From positions 1 through 21,810 of IMG/VR virus record IMGVR_UViG_3300035184_001680: a stretch of DNA of 21,810 bases, one strand, 5' to 3'. The notes under the pieces were generated by a model that saw nothing but the letters and a program-made list of their open reading frames with translations, did no database searches and was not told the DNA's origin. This DNA is from a virus. The position numbers and the translations under genes were made by a program. This document shows, in pieces, positions 1,902 to 21,556 of the stretch (its first letter is position 1; each line of letters opens with the position of its first letter).

Positions 1902-1917
1902 ATATTTATAATCAAAA
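1902..1917 (+). promoter_or_regulatory. Putative late promoter, copy 1 (ATATTTATAATNAAAA)
   Basis: First of three copies of a 16-base element identical at 15 positions. It contains a perfect TATAAT (1907-1912), preceded by an AAACTTAC leader that is partly shared with the other copies. It lies in the 33-base gap after the sigma gene, and the ATG of the next gene is five bases past its end. I read it as the -10 region of a late promoter recognised by the phage sigma factor. The T4 late box TATAAATA is similar but not identical. No host-type -35 is evident. Confidence 0.65.
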
Positions 1918-1922
1918 ATCAT

Positions 1923-5324: not shown

Positions 5325-5340
5325 ATATTTATAATAAAAA
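5325..5340 (+). promoter_or_regulatory. Putative late promoter, copy 2, abutting the start codon
   Basis: Second copy of the 16-base element, with TATAAT at 5330-5335 and an AACTTA leader. It ends at the base immediately before the ATG at 5341. With normal -10 spacing, transcription would begin at or within the start codon, giving a leaderless mRNA. The next in-frame methionine is about 60 residues on, past a conserved-looking helix, so the annotated start is probably right. It would drive the long unit 5341-18290. Confidence 0.65.
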
Positions 5341-5703
5341 ATGAAGTCAACAGAATTAAAAATCTTAATAAAATCAGCCGTAAGAGAAGCAATTCAAGAA
5401 GAATTGAAAGATATCTTATTAGAGGCTGTTAAGACTCCTCAAGTTTTACAACACCCAACCACAACACATACCCCAATTGTAGAGAATGTTCTTACTACTA
5501 ACTCTAATCCCCCATCTCCGAGCATGAGTGCTGAAGATAAAAGGGAGGCGTATAAAAATATTTTAGGTGATACAGCAGCATCTTTTAATTCAAGTAATGT
5601 CCCTCAAGGTTTTCAACCCAAACCTGGGTTTGATTCATCTAACGGAACTTTACCTGGTGGGGAAGTTGATATGTCCCAAATATCACAATTAATGAAAAGA
5701 TAA
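5341..5703 (+). CDS. Small protein with amphipathic N-terminal helix tag, 120 aa
   Basis: Function not known. Residues 3-30 form a charged amphipathic helix (LKILIKSAVREAIQEELKDI). Similar short Lys/Arg/Glu helical starts occur on many proteins of marine T4-like phages, as I recall. Residues 32-60 are a Thr/Pro-rich disordered stretch, a short helical segment sits at about 64-75 (SAEDKREAYKNILGD), and the rest is Gly/Pro/Ser-rich, ending in a small helix (MSQISQLMKR). There is no catalytic motif. It is the first gene behind putative promoter copy 2 and lies three bases before gp25, so it is probably made in step with the baseplate wedge and may be a minor virion or assembly protein. Confidence 0.78.
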   Translation: MKSTELKILIKSAVREAIQEELKDILLEAVKTPQVLQHPTTTHTPIVENVLTTNSNPPSPSMSAEDKREAYKNILGDTAASFNSSNVPQGFQPKPGFDSSNGTLPGGEVDMSQISQLMKR

Positions 5704-9995: not shown

Positions 9996-12900
9996 ATGGC
10001 AGAAAAACCAAAAAATCCCAGAGATAAAAAACTTCCACCATCAAAGTTTGTAGACGCCCAAAAAGGTAATAATCAACCTGTTTTTATAGAGGCTAACAGA
10101 AATTTCCTCAGTGATGTTAATATTCCTGTAAGTGCTTCAGTAGTATCAGTATCTCCAAGGGATATAGTATCGGATAGTTTTATAACATTAGAAGATACCG
10201 CTATAATACCTAACTCAGGATTATCATCATCATTTCTTCCTAATGAAAATTTAGTTGAATTTTATGCTTATGATACTCAAAAGAATATTATTAGTAGGAA
10301 TTATAATTTTTTAAATTGGGGTATAACAAAAAATACAACTAACACAGAAGTCCCAACAACATTTACCGATAACCAAGGTATACAAATTCTTGAATCTGAC
10401 ACATCCCCAATTCCAACAGATTTTATTGAATTAAACCCTGCAACTGATCTTTATAATTTAGGATTTGATGCTGGTGAGACTTATGCCTTATATAATTTTA
10501 TAAATTATGAATTAGGTTCATCTGTAGAGGATACATACTACATATCCGAAATATCAGGTGACCGAACTGAAATTAAATTAAGATCTAATACAATATCTGA
10601 TAGAGATATTAGAAGTACCTATAAGAAATTTCGCCAAAAATTTAACTCTCAAAAATATTTTGATGAATTTTATCTTGGGTTATTTGATAATAGATATGAA
10701 ATTTGTACTAATATTCTTCTTGAAAGAGATGGTAAAGGTGAATCACTTCTTATTAAGTTATATAACGAACTTGATCCTTCAATTTTAGCAGAATCCCAAG
10801 TTTACTTAATTACTAAGGTAGGGGAAACTGTATCTTATAAAGTAGAATTTGAAGAAGATTATCAATCTTTTGTAGATAACGCTACATATATTAAAGGTCC
10901 TAATATTAATATCCCATTACAAGATTTAGTTAATAACTCAACAACACTTAAATCCCAAAACAACTTACTAGATTCAAACTCCTCAGAATCTGTAAATGCT
11001 GTATTAAACATATTAAACCAAACAGGTGTAACAATAACCCCAGATTATTCATACAACACTTTTGATCAATTTATTAATTTCTCTTCTGCTAAAGAAAGAT
11101 TAAATAATTTTATTGAAAAAGTAACAGAACTTCAATCATATGAATCTGACATTTCTACTATTGAAAATGTAACAGGTTCTAACCCTGGAGTAGTAGCAAT
11201 TTCATCAAGTTTAGCTAGTTTAACTACCAAAGTATCAAACTTAATTGAAAATTTTGATGGGTACGAAAACTATTTATATTATAAATCATCATCTTATGCC
11301 TACCCTAAAACAGGCTCAGCTTATCCTTATACTTTACTCCCAACAACAGACCAAGCTGTAATAGATTGGATAGGTAGTGATGTAGAGGGATCTCAATATT
11401 ATGGAGGTTATGTATTATCTGCTTCTTTATATGATGAAAATAACCAAAATTGGTTATATTATACTATCCCTGAATTTATAAAAGAAAATTCAAGTAATGA
11501 TGAATATATTACTTTTTCAAATATGGTTGGTCAATCTTTTGATGAAGTTTGGCTTTATACAAAAGCCTTAAGTGAAAGATATAATACAACAAATGACCCT
11601 GATAAAGGGTTACCTCTAGATTTAGCTGCAGATGCAATTAAGGGTTTAGGGTTTGAAACTTTTGGAAATAATTATGACAATCAAGATAATTTTATAGGTT
11701 TAGCTGGTGAAGATAATGGGACTTATGTGCCCCCAACAGGTAGTGAATTAATTACTAAATATGTTGCTATAAATAACGGACAAATTATTAATTATTGGAG
11801 TGTTGGTTATTCTTGGGAGGATTATGTAGAACAGTTTATAGAAGCAGGTTTCCCGTATGCCATTGATAAAGTAAGTAAAGAAATTTATAAACGTCTTTAC
11901 CATAATATGGCTTACCTTACTAAGAAAAAAGGTTCGATTTCAGGTTTAAGACAACTAATTAATATTTGGGGTATCCCTAATACAATCCTTCGTATTAATG
12001 AATTTGGAGGTAAAAATAGAGATAATACTGATGATTATGATTTGTGGCAGAATAGATATAGCTACGCCTATACCCCCATATCAGCAGGCTACCACTTGGC
12101 AAGTTCATCTATTAAAGTACCGTGGATGCCTTTAGAAAGAAACTATATTGCTGAGACGGAAAACATAGTCCCAGATGGGGTTGCTCTTAGATTTAAAGCT
12201 CCCAAAGGTGCTCCTATTTCAACTTTTGGTGGGTCTTTTTATAGCCAATCAATTGCAGTTAAGAAATCAAATGGTACCGCTAACTCCCAAATGGATTGGG
12301 GTATTAGTTTATTTTATGAAGACCAACCATCAGGATCATATAGCGGTTCAAGTTTTAGCGATTACTACAATTATGGTAAATTAAGATTTTATATGTCAGC
12401 CTCAACAGCTGATGGTGGGGTTCAAATTTCAAACGATATTTACCTTCCATTCTTTGATGGCGGTTGGTGGAGTGTTTTACTTCAAAGAGATCAACACATA
12501 GGGTATACTGATAATACAGTTCCTACGACTTATACATTATTTGCGGCCAATAAACAATCTAATGGCTGGGATGGTAATTCAATAGGATTTACAGGATCGG
12601 TAAGTATGAATTCCACTACAAAACTTTCTATAAATAAATCTTGGAATGATTTTGGAGTTACTGAGGTTGATGGGGTTTACATTGGAGGTTATATATCAGG
12701 TTCAAATATAATGTCTGAAGTATCTAATGATTTTGGTAAAATATTTTCCGGATCCTTTCAAGAATTTAGATATTATTCAAATGATATTCCTAGAACTGTT
12801 TTTAATGATTTTGTAATGAATCCTGAATCCATTGAAGGTAACAATATTACAGGATCCGAAAGTTCATTTGACATAGTAAATTTTAGGGCACCTTTAGGTA

Positions 12901-15900
12901 ATGAATTAGAAAATATATTCTCAGGATCATCAACTACCTTTACCGACCAAATTTCCTCATCTCACCCTGCAATTACAGGTTCAGCAACTGTAGTAATTAC
13001 AGGCTCTTTTAGAAACCCCGCAGATAGTACTATAACTTCAAGTTATAATTTTATAGGGTATAATGATTCAAAAGATAAAATTTATAGTAAACCAAATACT
13101 GAAGTTTATTTTTTAGATCAACCTTCAATTGGGATAAGAAACAGAGTATCAAAGAAAATTAAAGTAGAAGATGGTAGTGTTTATGGTAAGGTACTATCAC
13201 AATATAAAAGTATAGACCAAGATTATTTAATTAGTCAAAGTTACACTGAAGATATTACAAGTTTAGAAGTAGGATTTTCACCCCAAGATGAAGTTAATGA
13301 TGATATTATTGCTTCATTTGGGTATGGGGTAATCTCTTCAGTTATAGCGGATCCAAGATTCTTTTATGATTCACAGGAAGTTTATTATCCTAAACTAAGA
13401 CAAATATCAGAGGAGTATTTTAAAAAGTATACCGAAGGTAGTGTTTGGGATTATATAAGATTAATTAAATATTTTGATAATTCACTATTTAAGGCTATTA
13501 AATCATTTGTACCTGCGCGTACTAGCGTGACTACAGGCGTTATAATTAAACAAAATATGTTGGAGCGCAATAGGCGCCCATCAGTATTAATTAACCCAAA
13601 TACTATAATAGCATACACACCAGAAACAGGTTCTGTGGTTGGTGGTCAATCAACAGAAACCGGATTTAATAGTGCTATTTCCTATAGGGATTTAGAATTA
13701 ACAGGTAGTATTAATATAGGTACTCTAAGTGGCTTACATGGTAATGTTCCCCCAAATTTAAGAGGAGAAGTATCAGCTAGTGGTGCTGGCTTTAACATCA
13801 TCCCTATAACTCAAAGTTGGACGGGAAGTTATGATACTGTATTGGGTTTAATTCCATTTACAGACTCATCATCTTATGAATTTTATAATGGGGAATATAG
13901 TGGAAGTACAATAGTAGTAACTACCCAATCCCTACTTAATAATCCTTTTGCTTTAGCACCTGTTTTAGATACTAATTATACTGTTAATGTCACCTCTAGT
14001 GAAGGTAAATTTAGTGAAACATTAAATAGTACTATAAACACATACCCATCATTTTCATTTAATTTACAAGCATTTTCATATGGTTCCTTATCTAGTGACC
14101 CCGCAGGTAAAACTACATTCCAAGGAGATTTTGATAGTTGGGGAACTGGTAATACTGTTGGGGATTCTACAGGTTCTATTTTTATAGCCCAAGATGACCC
14201 AAACTCGGGGACAAACTGGCAGAGTAGGTTTTATATAATTGGTTTAATACTCCCTCAGAGAATGCGATTGAAGAACTCGGGGGTAGTATCAACAAATAAT
14301 GCCGGGAATCATTTAGGCATAAATTATACCCCTGGATTTAGTGGAGGTTATAGTGCCAATCAACCTGACTTTAGCCTTGCTAATCTTATAACCCTTCCAT
14401 CTTCCCCAACATCTGGGTCAGGTTTAATAGGTCTTGAAACTGGAGATTATATACCTAATGATATTGGTCCTTATTTTAAATTAGATATAACAGGTTCCAT
14501 GAATAGCTTTTATGCTGATCCAAATAATACTCCTGTAGTACCAACAACAGAATCAGTATATGATGAAAAGAACTACCCAATTACCGAGTGGCAAAATAAC
14601 CAATTACCAACACCAGGTGCAAGCTTAATCGCAACAGTCTCACCTCCAGGCCCTAATACAGGAACTAAGTATTACAGCGATTCATTTCCTTCTACTTTAA
14701 ACTCAAATTTACGTTCAGTCCAATGGAAAAGAAAAGCTAGTTTAGGGCTTATAGATATTGAAGATACTGATGAATTAATATATGCAAATAATTTTGATTT
14801 TGCAGCCTCAGATTTACAATCACCATCATCTTTTAGATTTACTTTAGTTAATAGTACAAATAATGATAAAAATACTACTTTAAATTTAAACATGACTGAG
14901 ATGCAGTCTTACAATGTCCAGAATGGTCTTGGAGATCCTTGGAGTACAGTAACCCTACCTTTATCTTTATTTGCCCCTTCAGGATCTACTTTTGATAGTT
15001 ATAAATATGATACAGTTCAAATTCAATATGATATTAGATCTAACTCTATTGCTACCCCAACAACAGAATCAATATATGATGAAGATAACTACCCAACTAC
15101 CGAGTGGTTAAATAACCAATTACCATCAGGTGCAAACATAGCCGCAACAACTTCACCTCCAGGCCCTAATACAGGAACTAAATATTACAGAGATTCTTTT
15201 GCTTCTACTTTAAACACAAATATACGTTCAGTCCAATGGAAAAGAAACCCTAGTGAAGGGACTATACTTCTTGACCAATCTGATGAATTAATATATGCAA
15301 ATAATTTTAACTTTGCTGCAAATGATATACAAAACGGCTCATATTTTAAATTTGCTCTAGTTAATAGTACAAATGGTGAAATATATGCTACTCCAACTTT
15401 AGACATGTCTAATATGCAGACTTATAACGTCCAACCCGGTCTTGGAACTAGTTGGAGTACAGTAACCCTACCTTTTAACCTATTTGCAGCTTCAGGATCC
15501 ATAGCGGGTGATTTTTACTATGATACATTTCAAATCCAATATAATATTTTATCTGCCTCTCGTCAAGGTCAAACTGTTAATTTAGATACTTTACGTATTC
15601 AATTTAATGGTGGTGCCCCTCCAGATCAAACTTTTAATTTAGATACTTTACGTATTCAATTTAATGGTGGGGGTGTTCCTCCAACCGACTTTCCAGATGG
15701 TGTTGGTTTTGATACAGATGATAACTTTGGAGGTTTAGATACTAATGAAATAATTTCAAGAGTTATAGGCCCTAACACAACCATTACAAGAACCCCAGGT
15801 CAAACTGGTACTACAAATGGGGAAGGTCTCGTTAAGTATCTTATAGGTTCCCCTCAAAATAATAATGCTAGACCTATTAGACTTTATGATAAAGCAACTA

Positions 15901-18290
15901 ATAATGCAGCTAATATCCCTTGGAATAGTGCCCAGCAACCCTTTACAGGTTCATCAACATCTACAGTATTTATATCAAATTATGATACTGAAATAGAAAG
16001 ACAAAGAGATGCCTTTGCAGTTGCACCTCAAAAACCTAACTCCCTTCCTTTAATAGGTAGTGGTAGTTTAAGTTTAGTAGGAACAACTTGGACAGGTTCT
16101 TATAGTGATCATGGTGATTGGTTTCCATCCCTATTATTATTTAATAGAAGAAATTATGATACTTTAACAGGGGATTTAATAAATAATACTGAAACTTTCA
16201 CTCAATTTCCCCAATTTCAATTTACTATAGATGGGTTTACTGGAACTCCATACCTCCCACCTGTAATATTTAAACAATCTAATAATGATATAAGTGGATT
16301 ACTATCATATAATTCAGGTACATTTACTATCCCCTTCGAAAATGATGCAATAGCATATTCATATGTTCCTGCTACAAGTACCTTTCTTAGTGGATCTCCA
16401 TTTACATCTACTCCTCCTGGAATGTTTATACCTAATTTAGCATCTAACCAATACATATCCTTTGATCCTCAACTTCCACTTCAATCGGATTTTTATAATA
16501 CCCCATTTAATCCTTTAATTAATAATGCAACAGAAAGTGTTAAAAATACATATGTCCAAGTAGTAGAATATGATAATGGCCCTATACCTTCTAACTTTGA
16601 CCCTATAGTTAGTAGAACAGCTTTAAAAGCAAGAATACCTGATAGTTTTTACACTCAAAAAGCATCTATTCTTCCAAGATATTTAGGAAGTACCTTACAA
16701 AGTGCAAATTATAATACTTATACTTTACCTGGAAATATTACATTTTTAAATGCTTTCTTTACCGGTAGTACTATTACAGGATCTACGTGGGATGGTGATG
16801 TAAGTTTCGGAAAAACATCAGTAATTGATGTAAACCCAATATACATGGCCCATTTTAAAAATTCAAAAGAAAATTATGAATTGTTTGGTTCCTATACTTT
16901 TAGAATTGATTCTTTAATTGAAGTTCCTCTAGAAGATGTAACTGGGGGGAAAGCTCCAATAACCCCTATGGTTCTAAAAGTTGATGGGAGTAATGCAAAC
17001 TTAGCAGAAGTTAGAAGTTCATTTGAAGTTAATAGAAGTGCTAGTATTGCTTATAACTCTTCTAAATTTAGAGGGGTTAAGTACTCATCCTTAAAGGTAG
17101 GAAGTGGTAAAATATTTCAAGGAGCGATGGAATATCAAACTATATTTACAACACAACCTAACCCAACATCCTTTATCAACACCGCTAGTTTTATTACTTC
17201 TAGTTGGGTTGATTTTCGATTTGCTATATCAGAATCTTCGTCAACTACTACAGCAAACTCTAATGTTTTATTATTACCAGAATCTAATGTTACACCCAGT
17301 GGTACCTCATCATCACTAGGCGAAGTATTTTCAATATCAAGTTCAGGAGCATGGTTATCCACAGGTAGTAATGCATTATATTTTAGAGGGGGTTATACCC
17401 GTACTATACAAAACATGATGCCAAATGAAGATGCCGCTGAAGGTAGTACTGCTATAGAAGCAGGTTCTGGAAGATTTTATGGGAGTAGTTTAGCTATGAT
17501 TCACAATTATAACAAATATAGTGAAAACAAAATAGTAGCAACTGGGTCTTTATATTCATATGTGCAATCAACTAATAGCGGAATATCAAAACCAGGAACA
17601 CCCTCAGCATCATTCTTCCAGTTTGATAATGAAGAAATTTATTCATATCTTGAATTTTCGGGTTCAAATGATGGTGCCTTACCATCTTCATCAAATTTAC
17701 TCCCTTATGAAGATTTTAACCAACAATTTTTAGTAGAAGTTGGTGATGAAGTTAGAGTAACATATAATATTGCAGTTGTCCCTTCGGGTACAGTAGGAAG
17801 AACAACAACAACCCCAAGTGTTGGGAATCCTACATTCCACACTGAAACATTTACTGTTGTAAGTGCCGAAGGTAATACAGATTATGAAAACGAAATATAT
17901 CCATTCGAAATGTCTGCTTCCATATTTACAACCCAAATTTCAGAATCTGGTGGGGGTAATATTATCGTAAATACACCAATAACTGAATCTCAATATAATT
18001 ATGATAAATTAATAGTTTACCCAGACCCTTCAACTGTACAACCACCAATAATTGATGGTGATATTTTTAATTTTACAATTAGAAGAAGAATAAATGCTGA
18101 TGATAGAGTTGTTGTATACCAATCCCCACCCTCAGGTTCAAAGGGTGTAGAAACTATATCTGGAGATGGTTATATCATTCCAGATGATTTTTCATCACAA
18201 CAAAAACGAAATGCGTTAACTTTAATTAATCAATTAACAGCTAAAAATGCTTTTCGTGCATCAGAAGACCCCCCAAGTTTAAAAGAATAA
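9996..18290 (+). CDS. Giant modular baseplate/tail protein with gp7-like conserved blocks, LamG-like domain and internal duplication, 2764 aa
   Basis: The largest gene in the window, probably a peripheral baseplate wedge or tail-fibre-like virion protein. T4 gp7 is only about 1030 residues, so this is at most a greatly extended counterpart. Visible blocks: a Pro/Lys-rich start; FINFSSAKERLNNFIEK near residue 360; a helical block at about 632-675 (LYHNMAYLTKKKGSISGLRQ, then IWGIPNTILRINEFGGK); and a LamG/concanavalin-like beta domain at about 728-950 (GVALRFKAPKG, GGWWSVLLQRD, GSFQEFRYYSND). A second conserved block lies at about 1150-1190 (WDYIRLIKYFDNSLFKAI, SFVPARTSVTTGVIIK). A variable Ser/Thr/Gly/Asn-rich region (about 1200-2250) follows, holding two repeats. 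A beta-rich end begins near 2262 (DVNPIYMAHFKNSKENYELF). The gp7-like blocks are recalled from large phage structural proteins; order after gp6 supports that reading. TGS/SGS tripeptides are frequent throughout. The leader is A-rich with no Shine-Dalgarno. Confidence 0.85.
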   Translation: MAEKPKNPRDKKLPPSKFVDAQKGNNQPVFIEANRNFLSDVNIPVSASVVSVSPRDIVSDSFITLEDTAIIPNSGLSSSFLPNENLVEFYAYDTQKNIISRNYNFLNWGITKNTTNTEVPTTFTDNQGIQILESDTSPIPTDFIELNPATDLYNLGFDAGETYALYNFINYELGSSVEDTYYISEISGDRTEIKLRSNTISDRDIRSTYKKFRQKFNSQKYFDEFYLGLFDNRYEICTNILLERDGKGESLLIKLYNELDPSILAESQVYLITKVGETVSYKVEFEEDYQSFVDNATYIKGPNINIPLQDLVNNSTTLKSQNNLLDSNSSESVNAVLNILNQTGVTITPDYSYNTFDQFINFSSAKERLNNFIEKVTELQSYESDISTIENVTGSNPGVVAISSSLASLTTKVSNLIENFDGYENYLYYKSSSYAYPKTGSAYPYTLLPTTDQAVIDWIGSDVEGSQYYGGYVLSASLYDENNQNWLYYTIPEFIKENSSNDEYITFSNMVGQSFDEVWLYTKALSERYNTTNDPDKGLPLDLAADAIKGLGFETFGNNYDNQDNFIGLAGEDNGTYVPPTGSELITKYVAINNGQIINYWSVGYSWEDYVEQFIEAGFPYAIDKVSKEIYKRLYHNMAYLTKKKGSISGLRQLINIWGIPNTILRINEFGGKNRDNTDDYDLWQNRYSYAYTPISAGYHLASSSIKVPWMPLERNYIAETENIVPDGVALRFKAPKGAPISTFGGSFYSQSIAVKKSNGTANSQMDWGISLFYEDQPSGSYSGSSFSDYYNYGKLRFYMSASTADGGVQISNDIYLPFFDGGWWSVLLQRDQHIGYTDNTVPTTYTLFAANKQSNGWDGNSIGFTGSVSMNSTTKLSINKSWNDFGVTEVDGVYIGGYISGSNIMSEVSNDFGKIFSGSFQEFRYYSNDIPRTVFNDFVMNPESIEGNNITGSESSFDIVNFRAPLGNELENIFSGSSTTFTDQISSSHPAITGSATVVITGSFRNPADSTITSSYNFIGYNDSKDKIYSKPNTEVYFLDQPSIGIRNRVSKKIKVEDGSVYGKVLSQYKSIDQDYLISQSYTEDITSLEVGFSPQDEVNDDIIASFGYGVISSVIADPRFFYDSQEVYYPKLRQISEEYFKKYTEGSVWDYIRLIKYFDNSLFKAIKSFVPARTSVTTGVIIKQNMLERNRRPSVLINPNTIIAYTPETGSVVGGQSTETGFNSAISYRDLELTGSINIGTLSGLHGNVPPNLRGEVSASGAGFNIIPITQSWTGSYDTVLGLIPFTDSSSYEFYNGEYSGSTIVVTTQSLLNNPFALAPVLDTNYTVNVTSSEGKFSETLNSTINTYPSFSFNLQAFSYGSLSSDPAGKTTFQGDFDSWGTGNTVGDSTGSIFIAQDDPNSGTNWQSRFYIIGLILPQRMRLKNSGVVSTNNAGNHLGINYTPGFSGGYSANQPDFSLANLITLPSSPTSGSGLIGLETGDYIPNDIGPYFKLDITGSMNSFYADPNNTPVVPTTESVYDEKNYPITEWQNNQLPTPGASLIATVSPPGPNTGTKYYSDSFPSTLNSNLRSVQWKRKASLGLIDIEDTDELIYANNFDFAASDLQSPSSFRFTLVNSTNNDKNTTLNLNMTEMQSYNVQNGLGDPWSTVTLPLSLFAPSGSTFDSYKYDTVQIQYDIRSNSIATPTTESIYDEDNYPTTEWLNNQLPSGANIAATTSPPGPNTGTKYYRDSFASTLNTNIRSVQWKRNPSEGTILLDQSDELIYANNFNFAANDIQNGSYFKFALVNSTNGEIYATPTLDMSNMQTYNVQPGLGTSWSTVTLPFNLFAASGSIAGDFYYDTFQIQYNILSASRQGQTVNLDTLRIQFNGGAPPDQTFNLDTLRIQFNGGGVPPTDFPDGVGFDTDDNFGGLDTNEIISRVIGPNTTITRTPGQTGTTNGEGLVKYLIGSPQNNNARPIRLYDKATNNAANIPWNSAQQPFTGSSTSTVFISNYDTEIERQRDAFAVAPQKPNSLPLIGSGSLSLVGTTWTGSYSDHGDWFPSLLLFNRRNYDTLTGDLINNTETFTQFPQFQFTIDGFTGTPYLPPVIFKQSNNDISGLLSYNSGTFTIPFENDAIAYSYVPATSTFLSGSPFTSTPPGMFIPNLASNQYISFDPQLPLQSDFYNTPFNPLINNATESVKNTYVQVVEYDNGPIPSNFDPIVSRTALKARIPDSFYTQKASILPRYLGSTLQSANYNTYTLPGNITFLNAFFTGSTITGSTWDGDVSFGKTSVIDVNPIYMAHFKNSKENYELFGSYTFRIDSLIEVPLEDVTGGKAPITPMVLKVDGSNANLAEVRSSFEVNRSASIAYNSSKFRGVKYSSLKVGSGKIFQGAMEYQTIFTTQPNPTSFINTASFITSSWVDFRFAISESSSTTTANSNVLLLPESNVTPSGTSSSLGEVFSISSSGAWLSTGSNALYFRGGYTRTIQNMMPNEDAAEGSTAIEAGSGRFYGSSLAMIHNYNKYSENKIVATGSLYSYVQSTNSGISKPGTPSASFFQFDNEEIYSYLEFSGSNDGALPSSSNLLPYEDFNQQFLVEVGDEVRVTYNIAVVPSGTVGRTTTTPSVGNPTFHTETFTVVSAEGNTDYENEIYPFEMSASIFTTQISESGGGNIIVNTPITESQYNYDKLIVYPDPSTVQPPIIDGDIFNFTIRRRINADDRVVVYQSPPSGSKGVETISGDGYIIPDDFSSQQKRNALTLINQLTAKNAFRASEDPPSLKE
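14541..15560 (+). repeat. Two-copy in-frame tandem duplication, 516-bp period, within the giant gene
   Basis: Unit 1 spans 14541-15056 (172 codons, residues 1516-1687) and unit 2 spans 15057-15560 (168 codons, residues 1688-1855). Both begin PTTES(V/I)YDE and end at (Q)IQY(D/N)I. By hand count about 65% of residues are identical. Identical runs include SPPGPNTGTKYY, RSVQWKR, DELIYANNF and WSTVTLP, and the matching DNA keeps long identical stretches. The units abut directly, with a one-residue gap and small end differences. The period is a multiple of three, so the frame is kept. The unit is beta-rich and probably one domain. Confidence 0.93.
15570..15670 (+). repeat. Short tandem repeat, 57-bp period (44-base copies, one mismatch)
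   Basis: Copies at 15570-15613 and 15627-15670 match at 43 of 44 bases and encode NLDTLRIQFNGG twice, separated by a short Pro-containing spacer (APPDQTF). The offset of 57 bases is 19 codons, preserving frame. It sits immediately after the second unit of the 516-bp duplication. The near identity points to a recent slippage or recombination event. Confidence 0.95.
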
Positions 18291-18320: not shown

Positions 18321-18336
18321 ATATTTATAATTAAAA
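18321..18336 (+). promoter_or_regulatory. Putative late promoter, copy 3
   Basis: Third copy of the 16-base element, with TATAAT at 18326-18331 and an ATTAACGT leader. It lies in the 57-base gap after the giant gene, 11 bases before the ATG at 18348. Distances from element end to start codon in the three copies are 5, 0 and 11 bases. This variable spacing argues for a transcription signal rather than a ribosome-binding signal. Confidence 0.65.
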
Positions 18337-18347
18337 TAGTATAACAA

Positions 18348-20162: not shown

Positions 20163-21101
20163 ATGGGTGCATGGAAACAATTTACAACTAAAGACGTTAC
20201 AATAACTCCTTTTATAGCTGATAAGGGTTGGAATCTTACTGGGTCTTCAATGACTGGTTCCTCCTTAGGAGCTAACATATTTGTAGGGCAAAATGAACCA
20301 TACGATGCAACATCCCAAACAGGTTTTGTATATTCATCTTCAAGGAGTTCTATATATAATAGTGTTAAACAATTATATTATACAAACTATATATCCTCAA
20401 GTTTAGGGGATAATGTAACCACAGCTAGCATACGCCCTGGAGTTACAAGAGAAGATGATGTATTATTTGGTCCTATTCAATCCCCAATATATGATAACTA
20501 TTTACAATCTTCTTTACATCAGTTTAGATACTGGCCTACAGGTAGTGATGATTTAGTGTCAGTAATTGCAATCCCAACCAAACTCTTTGGAGAAAAGATT
20601 ATCCCCTACACTTTTGATCTTAAATATACAGGATCTAACTTTCCTACAGGCTTAAGTCTTACGGATGATGGAGATGGAAATATTATAAGTGGATCAGATA
20701 GTATGGTTGTAGGTCAAATATTCTACTCTCATGGTCTTGTTGTACTAACAACAGAAAGTTGTCAATTATTTGGAGTCGATGTGGAAAAATTTGGGGCACT
20801 ACCTCAAACTGAAATAAACTTTTCATCATCCTTAACAATTTACGAACAACAGTATAAGTGTACAATTTTAGAGAACGAATTTGGGGTTTCAACCAACCCC
20901 TCACTATTAACATCATCAATAGAAGGATCAGCTAATTTAGAATACTATCCTTTTGCAACCGCTTCATTTTTTGAACCTTATATTACTTGTGTAGGTTTAT
21001 ATAATGAGGCCCAACAACTAGTAGCTGTTGGAAAGTTATCTTTTCCATTACCTGTGTCCCAATTTACGGATACAACAGTTATTGTAAATTATGATATATG
21101 A
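20163..21101 (+). CDS. Putative virion protein, member B of the paralogous pair, 312 aa
   Basis: Paralogue of the preceding gene product. Matching blocks in the same order are IAIPTKLFGEKIIPYTFDL (135-153), LSLTDDGDGNI (164-174), VGQIFYSHGLVVLT (183-196), STNPSLL (243-249) and YITCVGLYNEAQQLVAVGKL (273-292), then SFPL. The N-terminus (GAWKQFTTKDVTITPF, SSIYNSVKQLYYTNYI) differs from member A and may be the variable, position-specific part. The start at 20163 follows the previous stop closely. An overlapping out-of-frame ATG at 20159 is not used. The stop overlaps the nuclease gene start (ATGA). A structural role is inferred; the two proteins may form a hetero-oligomer or occupy related sites in the virion. 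Confidence 0.83.
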   Translation: MGAWKQFTTKDVTITPFIADKGWNLTGSSMTGSSLGANIFVGQNEPYDATSQTGFVYSSSRSSIYNSVKQLYYTNYISSSLGDNVTTASIRPGVTREDDVLFGPIQSPIYDNYLQSSLHQFRYWPTGSDDLVSVIAIPTKLFGEKIIPYTFDLKYTGSNFPTGLSLTDDGDGNIISGSDSMVVGQIFYSHGLVVLTTESCQLFGVDVEKFGALPQTEINFSSSLTIYEQQYKCTILENEFGVSTNPSLLTSSIEGSANLEYYPFATASFFEPYITCVGLYNEAQQLVAVGKLSFPLPVSQFTDTTVIVNYDI

Positions 21102-21556
21102 TAAATTGGATCTATGAAAATAAAGAATTTGATACTATTAAAAATGATAGTTTTGGGTTCGTGTATAAAATAACCCATACCCCTTCCGGTAAAGTTTATA
21201 TTGGTCGAAAAAATTTCTTTACAAAAAGAAATAAAAGATTAGGTAAAAAAGAATTAGAAATAGTAAGAGAAGAAAGGAAATTAAAGAAAATGAGAGGAAA
21301 AACTCCTACTAAGAAATTAATAGTAGCTGAATCTGATTGGAAATTATATTGGGGTTCTAACCCCTCCCTTAATAAATTTGTAAAAGAAGAAGGTAAAGAA
21401 AAATTTACAAGAGAAATACTTGAATTTGCCTTTAATAAAAAACATCTAACATATTTAGAAACTAAATATTTATTTAAACTAGACGTTTTAGAAAATCCAA
21501 AACTATATTGGAATGATAACATACTAGCAAAGTTTTTTACTAAAGATTTTATTTAA
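21098..21556 (+). CDS. GIY-YIG family endonuclease, Seg-like, 152 aa
   Basis: Putative DNA endonuclease. The signature is present in modified form: GFVYKI at 20-25 (in place of GIY), YIGRKNF at 34-40 with the usual catalytic arginine in the vicinity (Arg37), and a candidate metal-binding glutamate in TYLETKYL (Glu121). The middle (41-73) is very basic, as expected for DNA binding (TKRNKRLGKKELE, KLKKMRGKTPTKK). WKLYWGSNPSLNKFVKEEG (81-99) resembles the SegE-type subgroup as I recall it. No separate DNA-binding domain follows, so it is a minimal catalytic domain. It overlaps the structural gene by four bases and precedes primase, i.e. it sits at a module boundary, where free-standing homing endonucleases of T4-like phages are often found. 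A repair or host-DNA degradation role is the alternative. Confidence 0.78.
   Translation: MINWIYENKEFDTIKNDSFGFVYKITHTPSGKVYIGRKNFFTKRNKRLGKKELEIVREERKLKKMRGKTPTKKLIVAESDWKLYWGSNPSLNKFVKEEGKEKFTREILEFAFNKKHLTYLETKYLFKLDVLENPKLYWNDNILAKFFTKDFI

Follow-up and report, generated by a model that had tools for sequence, protein, structure and literature searches.

A putative -10-only late promoter that reaches the start codon in T4-like phages of Bacteroidetes

Main finding

The AT-rich element that abuts the start codon of gene 5341 is probably a late promoter made up of a -10 box only. On this reading, which we hold with good though not full confidence and which rests on comparative sequence analysis, the promoter belongs to a clade of T4-like myoviruses infecting Bacteroidetes, is probably read by a phage sigma factor, and has its +1 about 4 nt after the sequence TATTTAT, such that the promoter can approach the ATG to the point at which +1 falls on the start codon. 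The host core RNA polymerase, together with the phage's own protein of the sigma-70 family, would recognise the element, and transcription would begin about 4 nt past TATTTAT on a conserved purine. With a host that makes no use of Shine-Dalgarno pairing, a message would need no leader, and the promoter could thus move towards the ATG. At gene 5341 the distance would have shrunk to a leader of 4-5 nt (5'-AAAAAUG) and in about one third of its orthologues to a leader of about 0, while other late genes would retain leaders of up to about 35 nt.

The element and its genomic context

The window, i.e. the whole stretch of 21,810 nt that was analysed, covers the tail and baseplate module of a contig of a T4-like myovirus. 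Among named phages, Flavobacterium phage vB_FspM_immuto_2-6A (hereafter immuto) is the closest to it, with 40-45% protein identity. Gene 5341 is followed by gene 5707, which is gp25-like (Pfam GPW_gp25, 4e-10), and by gene 6114, a baseplate wedge gene according to PHROG.

Three positions in the window, 1902, 5325 and 18321, carry ATATTTATAAT, ahead of ATG 1923, 5341 and 18348, respectively. The copies lie in gaps of 33-64 nt, which constitute three of the four intergenic gaps of more than 30 nt in the window, and each precedes the first gene after the gap. None of the genes at the tight junctions of the window has TATTTAT within 60 nt upstream. A scan of the window with ATATTTATAA returned the same three copies on the + strand and a single, intragenic copy on the other strand. 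The coordinates given in the earlier note and its distances to the ATG of 0 (5341), 5 (1923) and 11 nt (18348) hold for the 16-base form of the element, ATATTTATAATNAAAA; counted from the core TATTTAT, the respective distances are 8, 13 and 19 nt. The sequence logo has ATATTTATAAY-A-AAA as full consensus and TATTTAT as its invariant core. A -35 partner is lacking, the information content upstream of the core being at most 0.29 bit per position across the 94 sites compared. The coordinates are collected in Table 1.

Table 1. Positions of the element, the associated genes and the predicted leaders (window coordinates unless a locus is given).
Feature	Position	Strand	Evidence or remark
Candidate reader of the motif: sigma-70-family protein, 270 aa	1077..1889	+	Directly before first motif copy; Sigma70_r2 in relatives
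Motif copy ahead of ATG 1923, with predicted leader of 9-10 nt	1902..1922 (TATTTAT 1903-1909)	+	TATTTAT in 165/165 orthologues
TATTTAT core, putative late promoter before ATG 5341	5326..5332	+	Upstream of 112/112 orthologues; logo ATATTTATAAY-A-AAA
Predicted +1 (5337, possibly 5336) and predicted 4-5 nt all-A leader before 5341	5336..5340	+	Spacing floor, purine, host spacing
Protein of unknown function (120 aa) heading the baseplate wedge unit	5341..5703	+	ORF
Third motif copy, ahead of ATG 18348, with predicted leader of 15-16 nt	18321..18347 (TATTTAT 18322-18328)	+	Conserved spacing in relatives
TTGG-N17/18-TTCGTATATTTA sites	Loci L083-L095, L108-L113, e.g. G001 near 104794		

Conservation, orientation and placement

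More than 230 distinct loci were collected in three scans of viral contigs that carry the neighbouring sigma-like gene; this gene served as bait, so the association between sigma gene and motif is partly built in. TATTTAT was found at most 70 nt upstream of the 5341 orthologue in all 112 distinct regions and of the 1923 orthologue in all 165 (277 in total, with orthologous sites not being independent of one another), against a background of 17.7% for all + strand genes in the same loci. The element is, moreover, strongly oriented. The ratio of coding to other strand for ATATTTATAA was 24:0, 27:3, 21:0, 15:0, 13:2 and 8:0 in six longer relatives, and the orientation of the motif tracks that of the gene where genes are divergent or lie on the minus strand. 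A perfect palindrome, ATTATAAATATTTATAAT, at G005:C1:27423-27440 (locus L105) consists of two overlapping divergent copies of the motif. A control with the backward pattern of ATATTTATAAY was unclean, because TAATATTTATA overlaps the same sites, and composition-matched A/T 7-mers and 8-mers took its place.

The motif precedes about 30% of the genes with an upstream gap of 15-59 nt, and merely 2 of the 336 genes at in-operon junctions (gap <5 nt). In immuto it is found ahead of the genes for terminase, portal, tail sheath, tail tube, baseplate hub and tape measure. Given this conservation, the strand bias, the placement at the head of transcription units and the virion genes downstream, the data favour a directional late promoter over a translation element. 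The content of the genes downstream (sheath, tube, terminase, portal) is consistent with late expression. Not every late gene has the motif: in immuto, no TATTTAT occurs within 60 nt upstream of the major capsid gene (NC_055915.1 position 126896), unlike at the neighbouring structural genes. In the literature that we searched, with partial coverage, neither this promoter nor the late transcription of immuto-like phages was described.

A spacing floor and the predicted transcription start

The distance d between TATTTAT and the ATG has a sharp lower limit. Compared with the control 7-mers, an ATG is strongly over-represented at d=4 (66 sites, 2.5 expected) and at d=4-8 (177 versus 17.6), and depleted at d=0-3 (11 versus 21.7). 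Many of the cases with d<4 that were inspected have a second, adjacent ATG at a d of at least 4 or a further copy of the core on the upstream side; a few, e.g. immuto 1336, stay unexplained. The short spacing recurs in 28 clusters of downstream genes, most of them small, that have a median d of 4-8. A constraint on the motif sequence alone does not readily explain the step, since the A-run is interrupted to a similar degree by an ATG at d=4 and by one at d=3. Moreover, where the ATG is 20-40 nt away, 82% of the sites still have a purine at d=4 and 84% an A at d=5. In Flavobacterium johnsoniae the -7 element TAHHTTTG lies 4-5 nt from the transcription start (PMC6847099), and laying this geometry over nATATTTA puts +1 at d=3 or 4. 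From the spacing floor, the purine at d=4 and the host geometry taken together we infer that +1 lies about 4 nt after TATTTAT, at the conserved purine. In the window this would place the predicted starts at 5337, 1914 and 18333, which gives leaders of 4, 9 and 15 nt, or of one additional nucleotide each should +1 lie at d=3. In immuto (NC_055915) the rule would put +1 of gp114 at 81525, on the A of its ATG, that of the tail sheath gene at about 147004 (22-nt leader) and that of the tail tube gene at about 149183 (18-nt leader). A reading in which the -10 box extends to the last base of the A-run was rejected, as it would move +1 into the gene.

At the 5341 orthologues the ATG follows TATTTAT by 4-8 nt in 98 of 112 cases and by exactly 4 nt in 39, and gp114 of the isolate immuto 2-6A likewise has a spacing of 4 nt; the relatives, in which the earlier note had suggested to look for the same closeness, thus have kept it. 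At the 1923 orthologues TATTTAT is mostly found 10-16 nt before the ATG, and a d of 18-20 is kept at the 18348 site in G001, G005, G008, G002 and immuto.

How general are near-leaderless messages?

A near-leaderless message of gene 5341, with a predicted leader of 4-5 nt, is well supported by these comparisons, and at the 39 orthologues with d=4 the leader is predicted to be about 0, the A of the ATG coinciding with the predicted +1. The proposal that RNA starts at or near the ATG is therefore supported for one of the three sites in the window and not for 1923 and 18348, with predicted leaders of about 9 and 15 nt. Nor is the extension to late mRNAs in general, as made in the earlier note, supported: in four diverged genomes the predicted leaders of late genes overall have a median of 12 nt and 37% are shorter than 10 nt, with 26-29% in three genomes and 69% in G003. 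This predicted share is nevertheless larger than in the hosts for which figures were found, i.e. 3.7% of leaders <10 nt in Bacteroides thetaiotaomicron (PMC7366714), 5.5% leaderless in F. psychrophilum (PMC9723704) and 13% of leaders not exceeding 10 nt in F. johnsoniae (PMC6847099).

A Shine-Dalgarno-like sequence precedes 0-12% of the starts here, as compared to 66% of the T4 late starts. The start codons thus look as expected for a Bacteroidetes host, and the link drawn in the earlier note between a host that does not rely on Shine-Dalgarno pairing and a promoter that abuts the ATG is a reasonable one. Its further suggestion that late messages could bypass normal initiation control is not supported. 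Our reading of gene 5341 would presuppose efficient translation of its near-leaderless message. A stronger version of our reading is conceivable, in which promoter and start codon have become fused, the late sigma factor sets +1 on the A of the AUG and truly leaderless messages of a structural gene are a conserved, gene-specific trait (the 39 orthologues) of a widespread clade of Bacteroidetes phages, possibly aided by changes that the phage makes to the host ribosomes; we regard this version as tentative and somewhat doubtful.

A candidate sigma factor

The protein encoded directly before the first motif copy, or its orthologue, is probably the phage sigma factor that reads the motif on the host core RNA polymerase. 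Sigma70_r2 was matched in 15 of 33 relatives (best 1.2e-6), and a whole-genome search with the gp55 family phrog_234 had this gene as its sole match in each of G001, G002 and immuto (1.6e-4 to 8e-3). An alignment to gp55 with hhalign was weak (probability 6%, E 0.006), and a sequence-profile search of solved structures gave nothing relevant. AlphaFold models reached a pLDDT of 64.6 (poor) with 32 close sequences and 73.6 with 72 sequences, and the protein has an extra C-terminal helical domain. The best Foldseek matches of the second model were ordinary sigma factors, below significance (best E 0.025), and no gp55 was among the matches listed. A gp45-type clamp (PF02916, PF09116) was not found in G001, G002, G003 and immuto, while the T4 positive control was; the IMG/VR records may be partial and a diverged clamp is possible.

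Relation to known promoters

The late promoters of T4 depend on gp55, gp33 and gp45 and consist of the 8-bp sequence TATAAATA, located about one helical turn upstream of +1. The element described here is similar in that it is a single AT-rich -10-like box without a -35 box, is followed by AT-rich sequence, precedes virion genes and is accompanied by a phage protein of the sigma family. However, the coding strand here reads TATTTATAA, and it is TATTTATA that is the reverse complement of TATAAATA; the motif as TATAAATA on the + strand was rejected, since at the three window sites TATAAATA is on the other strand. In addition, the gp45-type clamp was not detected in the four relatives. With two defining features failing, we describe the element as a variant of the T4 late promoter and not as a member of that class. 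The leaders differ as well: in T4, the 14 late sites located within 100 kb are followed by leaders of 9-24 nt, never <9, most of them with a purine stretch resembling a Shine-Dalgarno sequence, whereas leaders here may drop to zero.

In the leaderless mRNAs of mycobacteria and archaea a -10 element places +1 at or near the A of the AUG. The predicted +1 is similarly placed here, but in a putative phage late promoter and in a phylum in which leaderless host mRNAs are uncommon.

Alternative explanations

The element might be read by the primary sigma factor of the host, SigA, instead of a phage sigma factor, which we consider unlikely. Bacteroidetes SigA promoters have TAHHTTTG at -12 to -5, and nATATTTA resembles it, with an A at position 2, a TTT-centred -7 box in place and a similar distance to the predicted +1. 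The same genomes also have host-like TTGG...TTCGTATATTTA promoters. Yet the first T is not conserved in the phage element (position -1 holds no information), the near-invariant final G of the host element is an A, the conservation extends downstream as TAAYAAA, the predicted leaders are shorter, and there is no counterpart to the -33 TTGG of the early-type sites. These early-type sites, TTGG-N17/18-TTCGTATATTTA, form a second promoter class with a host-like -33/-7 layout before many small, probably early genes in G001, immuto and G003; the 28 sites have a median of 26.5 nt from TTTA to ATG.

Alternatively, the element could act in the mRNA as an enhancer of translation initiation, e.g. as an A/U-rich ribosome standby site or a Kozak-like sequence, with the promoter further upstream. 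It always lies upstream of start codons, and initiation in F. johnsoniae benefits from an A-rich stretch ahead of the ATG (PMC6847099). The variable spacing, already held against an enhancer in the earlier note, indeed weakens this idea, as the distance to the ATG ranges from 4 to about 40 nt without a single optimum, and so does the near absence of the element from in-operon genes. Moreover, the A-rich positions d=4-5 remain tied to the motif even at sites whose ATG lies 20-40 nt off. We consider this alternative very unlikely. Finally, the closeness at 5341 would be an artefact of annotation if the true start were further downstream, the outcome that the earlier note had named as fatal to its reading. 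Start codons were predicted from sequence only, and in some other genes the first ATG is probably not the conserved one. At 5341 an in-frame TAA at 5335-5337 makes this ATG the first possible start, an alternative in-frame start upstream is absent in 112/112 orthologues, and the N-terminus M-K-x-x-x-L-K, which is conserved across the orthologues, starts at this codon, with the next in-frame ATG only at codon 62. A downstream start is contradicted by this conservation from codon 1 and appears exceedingly improbable.

Implications and further observations on the window

The phage promoter proposed here joins two oddities of the Bacteroidetes, a promoter box unlike sigma-70 sites and translation without Shine-Dalgarno pairing. 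If the explanation is true, independence from such pairing allows a phage promoter to move right up to the start codon, and the sharp floor at +1 by itself predicts transcription start sites from sequence. The motif would provide a rule for the annotation of late genes in a large set of uncultured flavophage-like contigs, and the cultured phage immuto 2-6A offers a direct test system.

Two other features of the window deserve mention. The 2764-aa protein of the tail region (9996-18290) has an internal duplication of a long segment at about 14.6-15.5 kb (TTESVYDEKNYPITEWQNNQLP / TTESIYDEDNYPTTEWLNNQLP). Right after the tail genes, 21098-21556 encodes a SegE-like GIY-YIG endonuclease (Pfam PF19835, 1.4e-29). 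Its PHROG is labelled 'NAD synthetase' and the similarly placed gp100 of immuto is annotated likewise, which looks like a propagated misannotation.
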